Part shown: in pieces, positions 4,382 through 27,130 of the stretch
Layout of the letters: each line of letters begins with the position of its first letter
How positions within the stretch are numbered: position 1 is the first letter of the stretch
Assembly (NCBI GenBank): GCA_937991945.1
Contig: CALKLO010000067.1
Location: forward strand, 1-47,576
Source of the DNA: an uncultured Granulosicoccus sp.
GTDB lineage: Bacteria > Pseudomonadota > Gammaproteobacteria > Granulosicoccales > Granulosicoccaceae
Reading direction: 5' to 3'
Length of the DNA stretch: 47,576 bases
The notes under the pieces: generated by a model
The model's database searches: none
What the model saw: only the letters and a program-made list of their open reading frames with translations
Told to the model about the DNA's origin: nothing
Made by a program: the position numbers and the translations under genes

Positions 4382-5088
4382 GAGTGATCCTCTTTAATGA
4401 ATTGTTAACAGCTACACAAACCGTTCAGTGCAGAATCTTTTATTACCATTGGTGCTTCAACGAAACACCCGCCTTTCAAACACTACTGACAAGGTGCAAT
4501 CGCAATAGATAACACCAAACTCTTGACTTATCCTAAGAAGTAAAACTAAGACTCGCTGGCAAGTTAGTCATTACGATTACTTTCTATGTTAATGGCAACG
4601 CGACGTCGAATGTTACTCAATAGTGCGTTTATTTCAACGTTAGGGGTTAAGAATATAGTCTAGCTTGTGAACATAACGTGAATAACATCATTTATCTGCA
4701 TGAAATTGTTAACAATTAACGCAGAGTGATAAACCATTGCAATCGCGAAATGAGCTAAAGACTTACGCCTTTGGCTTCATACTAGAGCGTCCTCGATGAT
4801 ACTTTTCTGTACCGCGAAGTCCAACATTATTTTCAAGATCAGATGTTGTTCAACATGCTGGGCTCTTTATGAGCTGTTTTGGTCTGTAAGATTGGGGGGG
4901 ACGGCCTTTTGCAGCTCATCTGATAGAAGGGTGTCACGCGTATAGTCAGCGAAAAAAATGGCCATCCTTGGCCTTCTTCGGCTCCGTGCCTTAATACCAC
5001 TTGGAGGAGGAATAACGAAAGTCACCACACTTTCGATAACTGTAGTTTACGCAATAAATGTCCGTTTACATGTGAAGCAAAAACAACT
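4382..5088. other. 707-bp intergenic region with repeats but no convincing gene
   Basis: Separates the divergent fasciclin and tmcA genes. It holds two copies of the 11-mer AATTGTTAACA (4400-4410 and 4704-4714), the second within a perfect 14-bp palindrome (4704-4717). It also has an 8-bp inverted repeat ATGAGCTG/CAGCTCAT (4869-4876, 4912-4919) enclosing a G7 run, and a strong GGAGGAGG purine run (5003-5010) with no start codon at the right distance. A 7-bp hairpin follows (5016-5022 with 5029-5035). The tmcA start is about 80 bases further on. I see no open frame worth calling; an operator and a structured tmcA leader are possible. Confidence 0.5.
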
Positions 5089-24466: not shown

Positions 24467-24859
24467 TTATCGCTTAGAGTACTGAGTAGCTTTACGAGCT
24501 TTACGCAGGCCTACTTTCTTACGCTCAACTTCACGTGCATCGCGAGTCAGGAAGCCTGCTCCGCGTAGTGAAGGACGAAGAGTTTCGTCGTACTTTAACA
24601 GTGCGCGTGAGATGCCCAAACGGATAGCACCCGCTTGACCACTACCACCACCGCCTTTAACAGTGATTTTGAAATCAAAGTTATTGAGTGTCTCAGTCCG
24701 CTCGAGCGGCTGACGGATAATCATGTGTGCAGTCTTTCGACCGAAGTACTCGTCTAGCGGCTTATCGTTAACAACGATTTGGCCACTGCCAGAGTTCATG
24801 AATACGCGAGCTGTAGACGACTTACGTCGGCCAGTGCCGTAATACTGTTGTGCTGCCAT
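24467..24859 (-). CDS. rpsI: 30S ribosomal protein S9
   Basis: 130 residues, full length for uS9. The N terminus ([18 protein letters not shown]), the [21 protein letters not shown] block and the basic C-terminal tail ending KATQYSKR are diagnostic; the tail reaches the ribosomal P site. The ATG overlaps the rplM stop by one base (TAATG), so S9 is translationally coupled to L13. A strong terminator follows. Confidence 0.98.
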
Positions 24860-25296
24860 TATTTGAGCTCCAGAAGCTGCGGCTGTTGCGCTTGATGCGT
24901 ATGGTTTGCGTCAGCAAATACGCGAAGCTTACCGTACATAGCACGACCCAAAGGATTCTTTGGAAGCATGCCTTTAACGGCCAACTCGATGATGCGCTCA
25001 GGATGTATCTTTTGCAGCTTCTCGAAATTGGTAGTCTTCAAGTTACCAATATAACCAGTGTGGTGTTGGTATAACTTGTTTTTTGCCTTGTTGCCAGTTA
25101 CGACAACTTTCGCTGCATTGATAACGACCATGTAGTCGCCGGTATCAACATGAGGGGTATAGATCGCTTTATGCTTGCCGCGCAAACGGAGGGCGCATTC
25201 AGTCGCTACGTTACCAAGCGTCTTGCCTTCAGCATCGATAACGAACCATTCACGTTTAACCTCTAAAGGTTTTGCGCTGAGGGTAGTCTTGTTCAC
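24859..25296 (-). CDS. rplM: 50S ribosomal protein L13
   Basis: 145 residues, near the usual 142 for uL13. Signatures include [34 protein letters not shown] and [15 protein letters not shown]. It is first gene of the rplM-rpsI operon. A leader of about 150 bases separates it from the candidate promoter at 25457-25483; in E. coli the leader of this operon is a site of feedback control by L13, which could apply here but is not visible at sequence level. Confidence 0.98.
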
Positions 25297-25456
25297 TATG
25301 GGGTATCTCGGTAGGGCATGTTCGGAACTAAGCCCGCCATTGTAAAGGAGGTTTTGCCGAAGCTCAACTCTCAGGCGAACATTTCGTCAATTGATTGGGT
25401 GTTGTGACCAATGTGACACACTTCTCTCTCATCGGCTACTTAGTACAGATCCGCGA

Positions 25457-25483
25457 ATTATACAACGAATTGGTAGCTTACAA
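25457..25483 (-). promoter_or_regulatory. Candidate sigma-70 promoter of rplM-rpsI
   Basis: On the minus strand, TATAAT (25462-25457) with TTGTAA (25483-25478) 15 bases upstream. The spacing is short, but the -10 is perfect. It abuts the T run of the preceding terminator and gives a leader of about 150 bases to rplM. Confidence 0.5.
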
Positions 25484-25514
25484 AAAAAAACAGCGCGATC
25501 CAATGAATCGCGCT
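25482..25514 (-). terminator. Orphan Rho-independent terminator upstream of rplM
   Basis: On the minus strand CAGCGCGAT (25514-25506) pairs perfectly with ATCGCGCTG (25499-25491), followed by nine T (25490-25482). It is a strong terminator with no recognised gene ending within about 390 bases; the nearest upstream gene on that strand is the OsmC-like gene ending at 25908. This implies a separate transcript such as a small RNA, or a very long 3' UTR. Confidence 0.85.
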
Positions 25515-25622
25515 GATTAACATCCTAAAGGATGGAGGAGGAGAAAACTACATTTACTGATTAGGAATATTGCAATCAGTAGGCCAACCCTCATCAAACC
25601 TCAAAAATAACCTCTGTAAATG
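25482..25622 (-). ncRNA. Candidate small RNA with exposed CUCCUCCUCC motif
   Basis: Reading the minus strand toward the orphan terminator, ACATTTAC (25622-25615) can close a domain with GTAAATGT. An inner hairpin (ACTGATT with AATCAGT, 25580-25556) lies inside it. Then comes an apparently unpaired CTCCTCCTCC (25543-25534), a small CATCC/GGATG hairpin, and the terminator stem with its U9 tail. A CU-rich anti-Shine-Dalgarno segment just before a terminator is the layout of several known bacterial sRNAs. The 5' end and promoter are not identified; the coordinates mark only the structured part. Confidence 0.4.
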
Positions 25623-25907: not shown

Positions 25908-26324
25908 TTAAGCGTCAATAATTTCCCAGCTATACGTAATTTTTGCCGTTTTTTCTAACATTTTAGTGGCTGAGCAATACTTCTCCGCGGATAGGTTTAC
26001 AGCGCGCTCCACGTGCTTTACATTGAGCTCCTTACCCCAAACTTTGAAGTGGGCCTTAATTTCAGTAAACACATGAGGAATCTCTTCAGCGCGCTCTGCA
26101 TCAAGGCTGACTTCAACATCGATTACGTTCTGGCGGGACTTTTGCAACATCAGCACTACATCGAACGCAGTACAGCCACCGAGTCCTAATAAGACCATTT
26201 CCATCGGCCTGATGCCTAGATTACGGCCACCGTGTTCCGGTGAACCATCCAGCACGACTGAGTGACCACTACCGGACTCACCTACGAAGCTCATATGATC
26301 AAGCCATTTAACTCTCGCGTGCAA
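25908..26324 (-). CDS. yhfA: OsmC family protein, YhfA-like
   Basis: 138 residues, the size of E. coli YhfA (134), an OsmC-fold protein. The two family cysteines are present: C51 in LGGCTAFDVV and C117 in KYCSATKML. OsmC and Ohr proteins reduce organic hydroperoxides with such a pair; the YhfA branch is poorly characterised and its function is open. The start is TTG, backed by AGGAG nine bases upstream. It is divergent from crp, the conserved arrangement in gammaproteobacteria. Confidence 0.88.
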   Translation of the reverse strand: MHARVKWLDHMSFVGESGSGHSVVLDGSPEHGGRNLGIRPMEMVLLGLGGCTAFDVVLMLQKSRQNVIDVEVSLDAERAEEIPHVFTEIKAHFKVWGKELNVKHVERAVNLSAEKYCSATKMLEKTAKITYSWEIIDA

Positions 26325-26491
26325 CGTTACATTCTCCTATGTTCAAATTTGGACATGCTTAATGGCGCCTCTTCGATTGAAGAATTCGAAAGTCCCGCCG
26401 ATCAATGTTTGACGTTAGACAAAAACAGACTGGAAGGTCGGACTAGACCTATCCGGTTCTTGCGCAAACTTTGAGTACGGAGAAACATATA

Positions 26492-27130
26492 ATGCTGGCG
26501 CCTCGTATCGTACCGCCACCTGTTGAATGGTTGGATCTGTTTTTAAGAAGCAGCCACCGACGACAGTACCCGGCAAAAACGACCATCATTCACCACGGTG
26601 ATGTGCCTGAAACGTTGTACTACATTCTTGACGGCTCTGTCAGTGTAGTCATAGAAGATGATGACGGACGAGAAATTGTCCTAGCCTACTTAAGTGCAGG
26701 TGATTTCTTCGGCGAAATGGGCTTATTTGACGAAAACTCACAACGCAGTGCTTGGGTAGTTGCCCGTACTAAGTGTGAGCTTGCTGAAATGAATTACGAT
26801 CAATTTAGACGTCTTGCGGCAGATCAACCTGACCTGCTTTACGCTCTAACTACACAAATGGCTGCCAGACTGCGTAAAACCAGTATCAAAGTACGTGATT
26901 TGGCATTCCTTGATGTAACGGGACGCGTCGCTTCTACATTGCTTGATCTGGCGAAAATGCCCGATGCCATTACTCATCCTGACGGCATGCAAATCCGCAT
27001 TACTCGACAGGAAATTGCTCGCATCGTCGGTTGCTCTCGAGAAATGGTGGGGCGAGTGCTCAAAGAGCTAGAAGATCGCGGCCTTATCCATGCACGTGGC
27101 AAAACAATGGTGATTTACGGTACTCGCTAA
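26492..27130 (+). CDS. crp: cAMP receptor protein (Crp/Vfr)
   Basis: Global cAMP-dependent transcription regulator. With the ATG at 26492 it has 212 residues, usual for Crp (210). The cyclic-nucleotide pocket shows FFGEMGLFD (G74, E75) and QRSAWV (R85, S86), the residues that hold cAMP ribose-phosphate. The C-terminal helix-turn-helix (about 172-197) contains the recognition helix [14 protein letters not shown], almost that of E. coli Crp. GGAG nine bases upstream favours this ATG over an in-frame TTG at 26471. Neighbours match the Pseudomonas-type layout of trpGDC, crp/vfr and yhfA. Confidence 0.95.

Follow-up and report, generated by a model that had tools for sequence, protein, structure and literature searches.

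A putative sigma-54-driven small RNA with an anti-Shine-Dalgarno stretch upstream of rplM in Granulosicoccus, apparently related to the RF02278 RNAs

What does the intrinsic terminator on the minus strand ahead of rplM terminate in an uncultured Granulosicoccus? In the window, by which we mean the whole stretch of 47,576 nucleotides that was analysed, the minus strand carries a yhfA/osmC gene (26324-25908), a gap of 611 nt, rplM with a GTG start at 25296, and then an rpsI-like gene; the names yhfA/osmC, rplM and rpsI are those that we presume from resemblance. An earlier note had placed in this gap a small RNA whose anti-Shine-Dalgarno stretch would be exposed. The terminator that it described is present (25515-25491, 11 counted pairs, 7 of them GC, followed by nine T), and no recognised gene ends there, the yhfA/osmC stop at 25908 lying 426 nt ahead of the end of the T run. 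We consider it very probable that the interval 25586-25482 on the minus strand, inside the yhfA/osmC-rplM gap, is a stand-alone gene for a sigma-54-driven, trans-acting small RNA that blocks ribosome-binding sites and is a divergent homologue of RF02278. The features are as follows.

25908 to 26324, minus strand: yhfA/OsmC-family gene, upstream neighbour (open reading frame, relatives)
25572 to 25586, minus strand: sigma-54 promoter core TGGC-N7-TTGC (-24/-12), seen at 26 of 26 genus loci
25482 to 25560, minus strand: predicted small RNA transcript, about 79 nt (promoter geometry, as we infer it, fold and R1 match)
25534 to 25547, minus strand: putative anti-Shine-Dalgarno stretch UUUUCUCCUCCUCC (conserved UUUUCUCCUCC)
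25521 to 25534, minus strand: predicted hairpin 1, CAUCC-UUUA-GGAUG (fold; helix 1 of alignment A2)
25491 to 25515, minus strand: predicted hairpin 2, the intrinsic terminator stem (terminator scan, fold; helix 2 of alignment A2)
25482 to 25490, minus strand: U9 tail (sequence)
25483 to 25547, minus strand: double-hairpin core in common with RF02278-like RNAs (model R2)
25339 to 25367, minus strand: rplM promoter TTGAGC-17-TACAAT, conserved and distinct from the small RNA (promoter scan, relatives)
24859 to 25296, minus strand: rplM, downstream neighbour, GTG start (open reading frame, relatives)

With the +1 position set 12 nt past the C of TTGC and the 3' end at the T run, the RNA 25560-25482 is predicted to fold with -22.7 kcal/mol (z -4.58, matched by 0 of 200 shuffles) into two hairpins that leave the CU stretch unpaired. 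The single-stranded stretch of the earlier note is thereby retained, CTCCTCCTCC at 25543-25534 being unpaired in this fold except for its last base. A small RNA is also retained, although at about 80 nt it is shorter than the proposed 100-250 nt. The nested stems that had been drawn upstream of the CU stretch (25546-25622) have no such support (z +0.41, 128 of 200 shuffles folding as well); the second supported stem lies 3' of the CU stretch, at 25534-25521. The upper stem of that reading overlaps the sigma-54 site (25586-25572), and since 25546-25622 is mostly upstream of or inside this site, it is probably not transcribed.

The simplest objection is that an ordinary terminator happens to stand next to a chance CU stretch and that there is no functional RNA. 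A pattern scan of the region yields 2 terminator-like sites against 1.9 expected, which is not significant by itself and would suit such a coincidence, but conservation and covariation across 26 species speak against it, and we give this reading practically no credence. Our genus sample comprises 27 Granulosicoccus-type genomes, the window's own included. rplM is located in 26 of them (in G019 it is divided between two contigs), and the small RNA locus is present in all 26; G010, 63% complete and with neither an rplM match nor an R1 match, was left out of the locus counts. Twenty-one of the 26 predicted transcripts contain UUUUCUCCUCC exactly, three (G024, G018 and G008) have UUUUCUCCUAC in its place, and G003 and G017 have a degenerate anti-Shine-Dalgarno stretch and an extended 5' part. 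Trimmed after the terminator, the predicted RNAs of these two measure 102-104 nt, and those of the other 24 species 73-80 nt. G003 and G017 were excluded from alignment A1 and from the covariance model R1, but were included when promoters, covariation and seeds were counted. R1, built from 24 sequences with the window sequence among them, matches the window at 25560-25483 with 71.7 bits and gives one strong match per genome, at the small RNA locus, in 26 of the 27 genus genomes; the single additional match, in G002, is weak (E 0.04).

Across the 26 aligned sequences, 12 of the 15 predicted pairs show double changes, and 91.3% of the paired cells in alignment A2 can pair, compared with 82.1% after shuffling and 33-47% after sliding, values that are biased in the structure's favour because this alignment was fitted to the structure. 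The excess of further pair types is less clear, as 19 of 500 shuffles reach an equally high number. Helix 2 is far better supported (double changes at 9 of 10 pairs, 96.2% of cells paired) than helix 1 (3 of 5 pairs, 81.5%), and RNAalifold alone predicted helix 2 only. Loop lengths differ between relatives by amounts that are not multiples of three, which is evidence against a coding role. Thus the CU motif and the stems, whose persistence beside rplM in relatives the earlier note had proposed as its check, are both conserved, the former exactly in 21 of 26 species and the latter with covariation.

The -24/-12 consensus of sigma-54 promoters is TGGC-N7-TTGC. Exactly this sequence occurs once at each of the 26 genus loci, 194-407 nt ahead of rplM, compared with 0.35 of 26 loci in shuffles of the same 420 nt. 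Its eight core bases are invariant and the spacer and flanks vary, as is expected of a selected -24/-12 element. A -24/-12 promoter with correct spacing, which marks a sigma-54-dependent small RNA gene, is found at 26 of 26 loci; a compilation of such promoters is cited in the part of PMC10117139 used here. Counted from the C of TTGC, the CU motif has its U stretch starting after 18-25 nt in 24 of the 26 loci and after 47 nt in G003, the value of 2 for G017 not being meaningful since another T run was picked there. The DNA-binding domain of RpoN (PF04552) was detected in 25 of the 27 genus genomes, including all 16 of the good ones.

This promoter site bears on whether the RNA is instead cut from, or is simply the end of, the yhfA/osmC mRNA, as a 3' UTR-derived or read-through product. 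The two share a strand, the RNA lying about 350 nt past the yhfA stop; the terminator scan shows no other minus-strand terminator between them; and in Bordetella, S17S is processed from a longer transcript, as part of PMC11722255 describes. Against such an origin stand the RNA's own promoter site, with its -24/-12 core invariant in 26 of 26 species, and the poor conservation of the DNA upstream of the sigma-54 site. We regard derivation from yhfA as improbable, and an independent RNA with an exposed anti-Shine-Dalgarno stretch appears well supported: judged from the sequences, the candidate looks real. What holds of the earlier proposal is thus an independent RNA, in favour of which we now count a promoter site of its own, covarying stems, a terminator and an R1 match in 26 of 27 genus genomes; the upper nested stems, by their fold against shuffles, and the coupling to rplM transcription are unsupported. 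Both the sigma-54 site and the relation to RF02278 were absent from that proposal.

No pattern stands out clearly from shuffles as an activator site in a spaced-trimer search covering as much as 220 nt ahead of the promoter at the 26 loci. The best spaced trimer, TGA-N6-TCA, occurs at 10 of 26 loci with about 2 expected, many patterns having been tried. CRP-like palindromes (TGTGA-N6-TCACA with 0-1 mismatch) are found upstream of the sigma-54 site at 5 of 26 loci (G016, G005, G004, G021 and G019), 0.25 being expected, and their positions are inconsistent between loci. A recurring GGTGAGCCAGTTCAAA (2 mismatches) was rejected as a regulatory site after the C-termini were compared, as it reads as yhfA coding sequence (GEPVQ). 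Separately, a gene for a Crp/Fnr-type regulator lies at 26471-27130 on the plus strand of the window, divergent from yhfA, presumably the same arrangement as beside E. coli crp.

The position ahead of rplM also raises a cis-acting function, in which a leader or attenuator would link the RNA to the expression of ribosomal proteins. Consistent with this, rplM lies just downstream in 68 of the 101 evaluable loci outside the genus. However, 33 of these 101 loci are not beside rplM, and the RNA pairs with the start region of rplM no more strongly than with shuffles (mean z +0.47, 26 species). Moreover, the terminator precedes a conserved rplM promoter, TTGAGN-17-TACAAT or TAGAAT, in 24 of the 26 genus species, and so the RNA is not in the mRNA made from that promoter. 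The terminator and this separate promoter likewise argue against a transcriptional coupling of the RNA to rplM. The promoter that had been placed at the end of the T run, a 9-of-12 match in the window species, is not conserved: after the terminator of its relatives at most 8 of 12 letters agree, apart from G016 and G005, in which the conserved rplM promoter falls within the stretch scanned. We therefore regard a cis role as very unlikely: rplM is a neighbour and not a favoured pairing target.

To which known RNA is it related? The Rfam search of the window gave no match to any family at the gathering threshold. Below that threshold, RF02278 scores best at the locus, aligning over its full length (1-64) with 29.1 of the 50 bits that gathering requires, and the window RNA has the same double-hairpin layout with a CU-rich 5' stretch. 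Of the 57 genomes searched only G008, a genus member, passes that threshold, reaching 52.6 bits at the same osmC-rplM locus. At E<=0.1 RF02278 finds matches in 33 of 57 relatives, and these weak matches prove little because 5 of 14 control genomes match as well. Further RF02278 matches within the genus, at places away from rplM (G020, G009, G022, G014, G024 and G010), have no sigma-54 site and appear to be different RNAs or chance. Another conserved, terminated RNA-like element, unrelated to the small RNA, was seen at about 470-565 on the match strand of four loci (L182, L183, L184 and L185, from G020, G009, G022 and G014); it has TTGGAAGTAGTTCTCCAATTTGGTGCAAGGCAACTT in three of them and a variant in the fourth, followed by a strong terminator.

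The sister genera supply the intermediates. Across the family, R1 detects the RNA in 42 of 48 genomes, namely 26 of the 27 genus members and 16 of the 21 others (g4 13/14, g5 1/1, g6 2/2, g2 0/3, g3 0/1). In all 14 loci fetched from the sister genera g4 and g5 the RNA is flanked by osmC and rplM, and the tandem pairs of g6 (G031 and G034) occupy the same interval; the g4, g5 and g6 copies carry a UUUCCUCCUCCAUC(CU)CCU core resembling RF02278. A wider covariance model, R2, which has the window sequence in its training set, matches the window at 25483-25547 with 57.4 bits (E 2.1e-12). A second, weak R2 match in the window, at 4951-5013 on the minus strand (18.1 bits, E 0.017), is possibly due to chance.

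An anti-Shine-Dalgarno RNA unrelated to RF02278 could have arrived at two hairpins by chance. The subthreshold score in the window, the short core of simple composition and the control matches at E<=0.1 are all compatible with convergence, but the sister-genus copies have an RF02278-like core at the same osmC-rplM position, G008 exceeds the RF02278 cut-off, and at E<=0.001 RF02278 is found in 77 of 276 class genomes (2 above the cut-off) and in 0 of 14 controls. Convergence thus has a slim chance of being right. The chain from the genus through the sister genera to RF02278 implies that the window RNA is a divergent homologue despite failing the Rfam cut-off, the sister-genus copies at the corresponding osmC-rplM locus serving as intermediates in an apparent common descent; the betaproteobacterial RNAs are connected to it by sequence and structure alone.

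At E<=1e-4, R2 finds the RNA in 105 of 276 Gammaproteobacteria genomes. The class census took one best R2 match per genome, with the genus genomes G000 and G017 left out, and comprises 103 loci, two of them on contigs too short for rplM adjacency to be judged. In the 68 adjacent loci, rplM follows on the same strand at a distance of 82-683 nt. Twenty-eight of the 103 census genomes were in the R2 training set, having been chosen by RF02278 score and not by position, and without them 45 of 73 loci are adjacent. In the RF02278-to-rplM comparison, among the matches listed, at least 40 genomes have the two adjacent, at least 17 have rplM elsewhere and 20 are undecided. Among 80 rplM loci retrieved by title, R2 at E<=4e-8 lies upstream of rplM in 11, five of which are Granulosicoccaceae; the other six, of which at least L040, L063 and L034 are not independent of the census (G173, G045 and G122), include Tepidiphilus olei, two Thiotrichaceae MAGs and a Lucinoma symbiont. 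Some genomes (G268, G287, G302, G195, G031 and G034) hold two to five double-hairpin copies, partly in tandem.

The promoter differs between the genus and its relatives. A strict TGGC-N7-TTGC within 120 nt upstream occurs at 26 of 26 genus loci and at 1 of 103 outside loci; the sister-genus loci have none (0/14), and a slightly looser pattern finds none at the six titled loci outside Granulosicoccaceae. Outside the genus, TTGAC is present 30-120 nt upstream in 81 of 102 loci (8.8 expected) and a sigma-70 score of at least 10 of 12 letters in 59 of 102 (3.8 expected), one locus with less than 100 nt upstream having been dropped from the 103, whereas at the genus loci sigma-70 scores are as in shuffles. 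The sister genera show a weak sigma-70 signal, the highest score being 9, in 10 of 14 loci (about 4.5 expected at 9 or more), and several of their loci have TATAAT just upstream. Taken together, the sigma-54 site in 26 of 26 genus loci and 1 of 103 outside, with sigma-70-like signals enriched outside, suggest that the usual sigma-70-like promoter was probably swapped for a sigma-54 one in Granulosicoccus, the direction of the switch being read from this distribution. The single outside locus with a sigma-54 site, in G108 (L334 / L176), is an rplM-linked copy with the site 69 nt before the core, and may possibly reflect an independent promoter change.

Perfect complements of the 11-mer seed, GGAGGAGAAAA, number 57 in 25 of the 27 genus genomes, 21 of them being the small RNA gene itself; the 36 others show no clear excess over the 31 of a reversed control in the 27 genomes. 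Fifty of the 57 matches were inspected as loci (L259-L308), the remaining seven being six in the small RNA gene and G011:C4. A start codon and a frame of at least 40 aa stand at a suitable distance in 6 of these 50, one of which (L278) is the small RNA gene, and no target common to several species was seen among the 50. Two stretches containing an exact seed complement do recur, GTACTACAGGAGGAGAAAAACCATACTAAAC in L271, L303 and L306 (G020, G009 and G022) and GGAGGAGAAAAGCTTGCGCGA in L300 (G000) and L301 (G016). Pairing with the yhfA start region is only slightly better than with shuffles (mean z -0.92, 20 species), as an ordinary Shine-Dalgarno sequence would give; start-region pairing thus singles out neither rplM (26 species) nor yhfA (20 species).

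Conservation, covariation, promoter consensus, synteny and promoter contrast are observed in the sequences; for the window RNA we infer transcription, its start site, a part for Hfq, targets, an activator and a signal as follows. An enhancer-binding activator and sigma-54 RNA polymerase would transcribe an RNA of about 79 nt consisting of a short 5' segment, the unpaired UUUUCUCCUCCUCC, a small hairpin, the terminator hairpin and U9. The RNA would most likely act in trans, probably with Hfq, with whose binding the U9 tail and the U-rich stretch are at most compatible. Its CU stretch would pair with the Shine-Dalgarno regions of several mRNAs and lower their translation while the sigma-54 signal is on. 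By analogy with ncS27 and S17, a trans-acting translational repressor is the most likely role.

A wider scenario is tentative, and we hold it to be rather doubtful: the RF02278-like RNAs could be the betaproteobacterial part of an old gammaproteobacterial small RNA with a home ahead of rplM, and the exchange of sigma-70 for sigma-54 in Granulosicoccus could have made a growth-linked translational brake part of a sigma-54 circuit, possibly as feedback in which, like S17 in Bordetella, it silences genes for transporters and sigma-54 activators. The Rfam name of RF02278 refers to Betaproteobacteria, and the function of the family is only partly understood. A conserved position ahead of rplM in many Gammaproteobacteria offers a syntenic handle for finding the RNA in species amenable to experiment. 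A switch of sigma factor throughout a genus, at a small RNA that is otherwise conserved, would be a natural experiment on the signal of the brake and the effect of rewiring, and would clearly exemplify promoter turnover. Judged by titles and the starts of abstracts, none of the open-access papers listed under this subject (rplM-upstream small RNA, sigma-54 anti-Shine-Dalgarno small RNA, double-hairpin RNA or Granulosicoccus small RNA) describes this locus. The original report of toxic RNAs is said to be Kimelman 2012.

Several known small RNAs resemble the window RNA in part. The genes of CrcZ, NrsZ, GlmY and Qrr are transcribed by sigma-54 polymerase and would be alike in this respect, although the window has no gathering-level match to any Rfam family. 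Two further RNAs are likened by description. NfeR1 (alpha-r14) of Sinorhizobium has a comparable unpaired anti-Shine-Dalgarno motif, CCUCCUCCC, silences in trans and is linked to nitrogen control, but has three hairpins and an NtrC-repressed sigma-70 promoter (part of PMC10746234). CJnc230 / FlmE of Campylobacter is an RpoN-dependent small RNA with a putative anti-Shine-Dalgarno motif, but this motif is CCUU, and the RNA is co-transcribed with flgE and processed (part of PMC11187230).

The closest likeness is to RF02278 itself, which the parts consulted of open-access works on Burkholderia, Herbaspirillum and Bordetella name. The Burkholderia RNAs ncS03, ncS05, ncS27 and ncS62 share the CU-rich unpaired stretch, the small hairpin and the terminator hairpin. 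In the relevant parts of PMC4603805 and PMC5688073, Burkholderia double-hairpin RNAs are 57-92 nt long, with a CU stretch complementary to ribosome-binding sites, and members of the family inhibit growth when cloned in E. coli. For ncS27, part of PMC5688073 reports a CU-rich region predicted to cover ribosome-binding sites, and an overexpression that slowed planktonic growth without significant effect on biofilms. Unlike these RNAs, the window RNA is below the Rfam cut-off, lies beside rplM and has a sigma-54 site, and there is one strong copy per genus genome instead of three to five per Burkholderia genome (part of PMC5688073). S17 of Bordetella pertussis has, like the window RNA, an RF02278-related core and a CU-rich Site 1; according to part of PMC11722255, it is Hfq-dependent and predicted to cover ribosome-binding sites, with one target confirmed by reporter; the short form directly represses a sigma-54 activator gene in a reporter assay, and S17S is not similarly toxic to E. 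coli in exponential growth. The same part derives S17L from a sigma-A promoter and S17S by processing of S17L, whereas the window RNA is predicted to start at a sigma-54 promoter.
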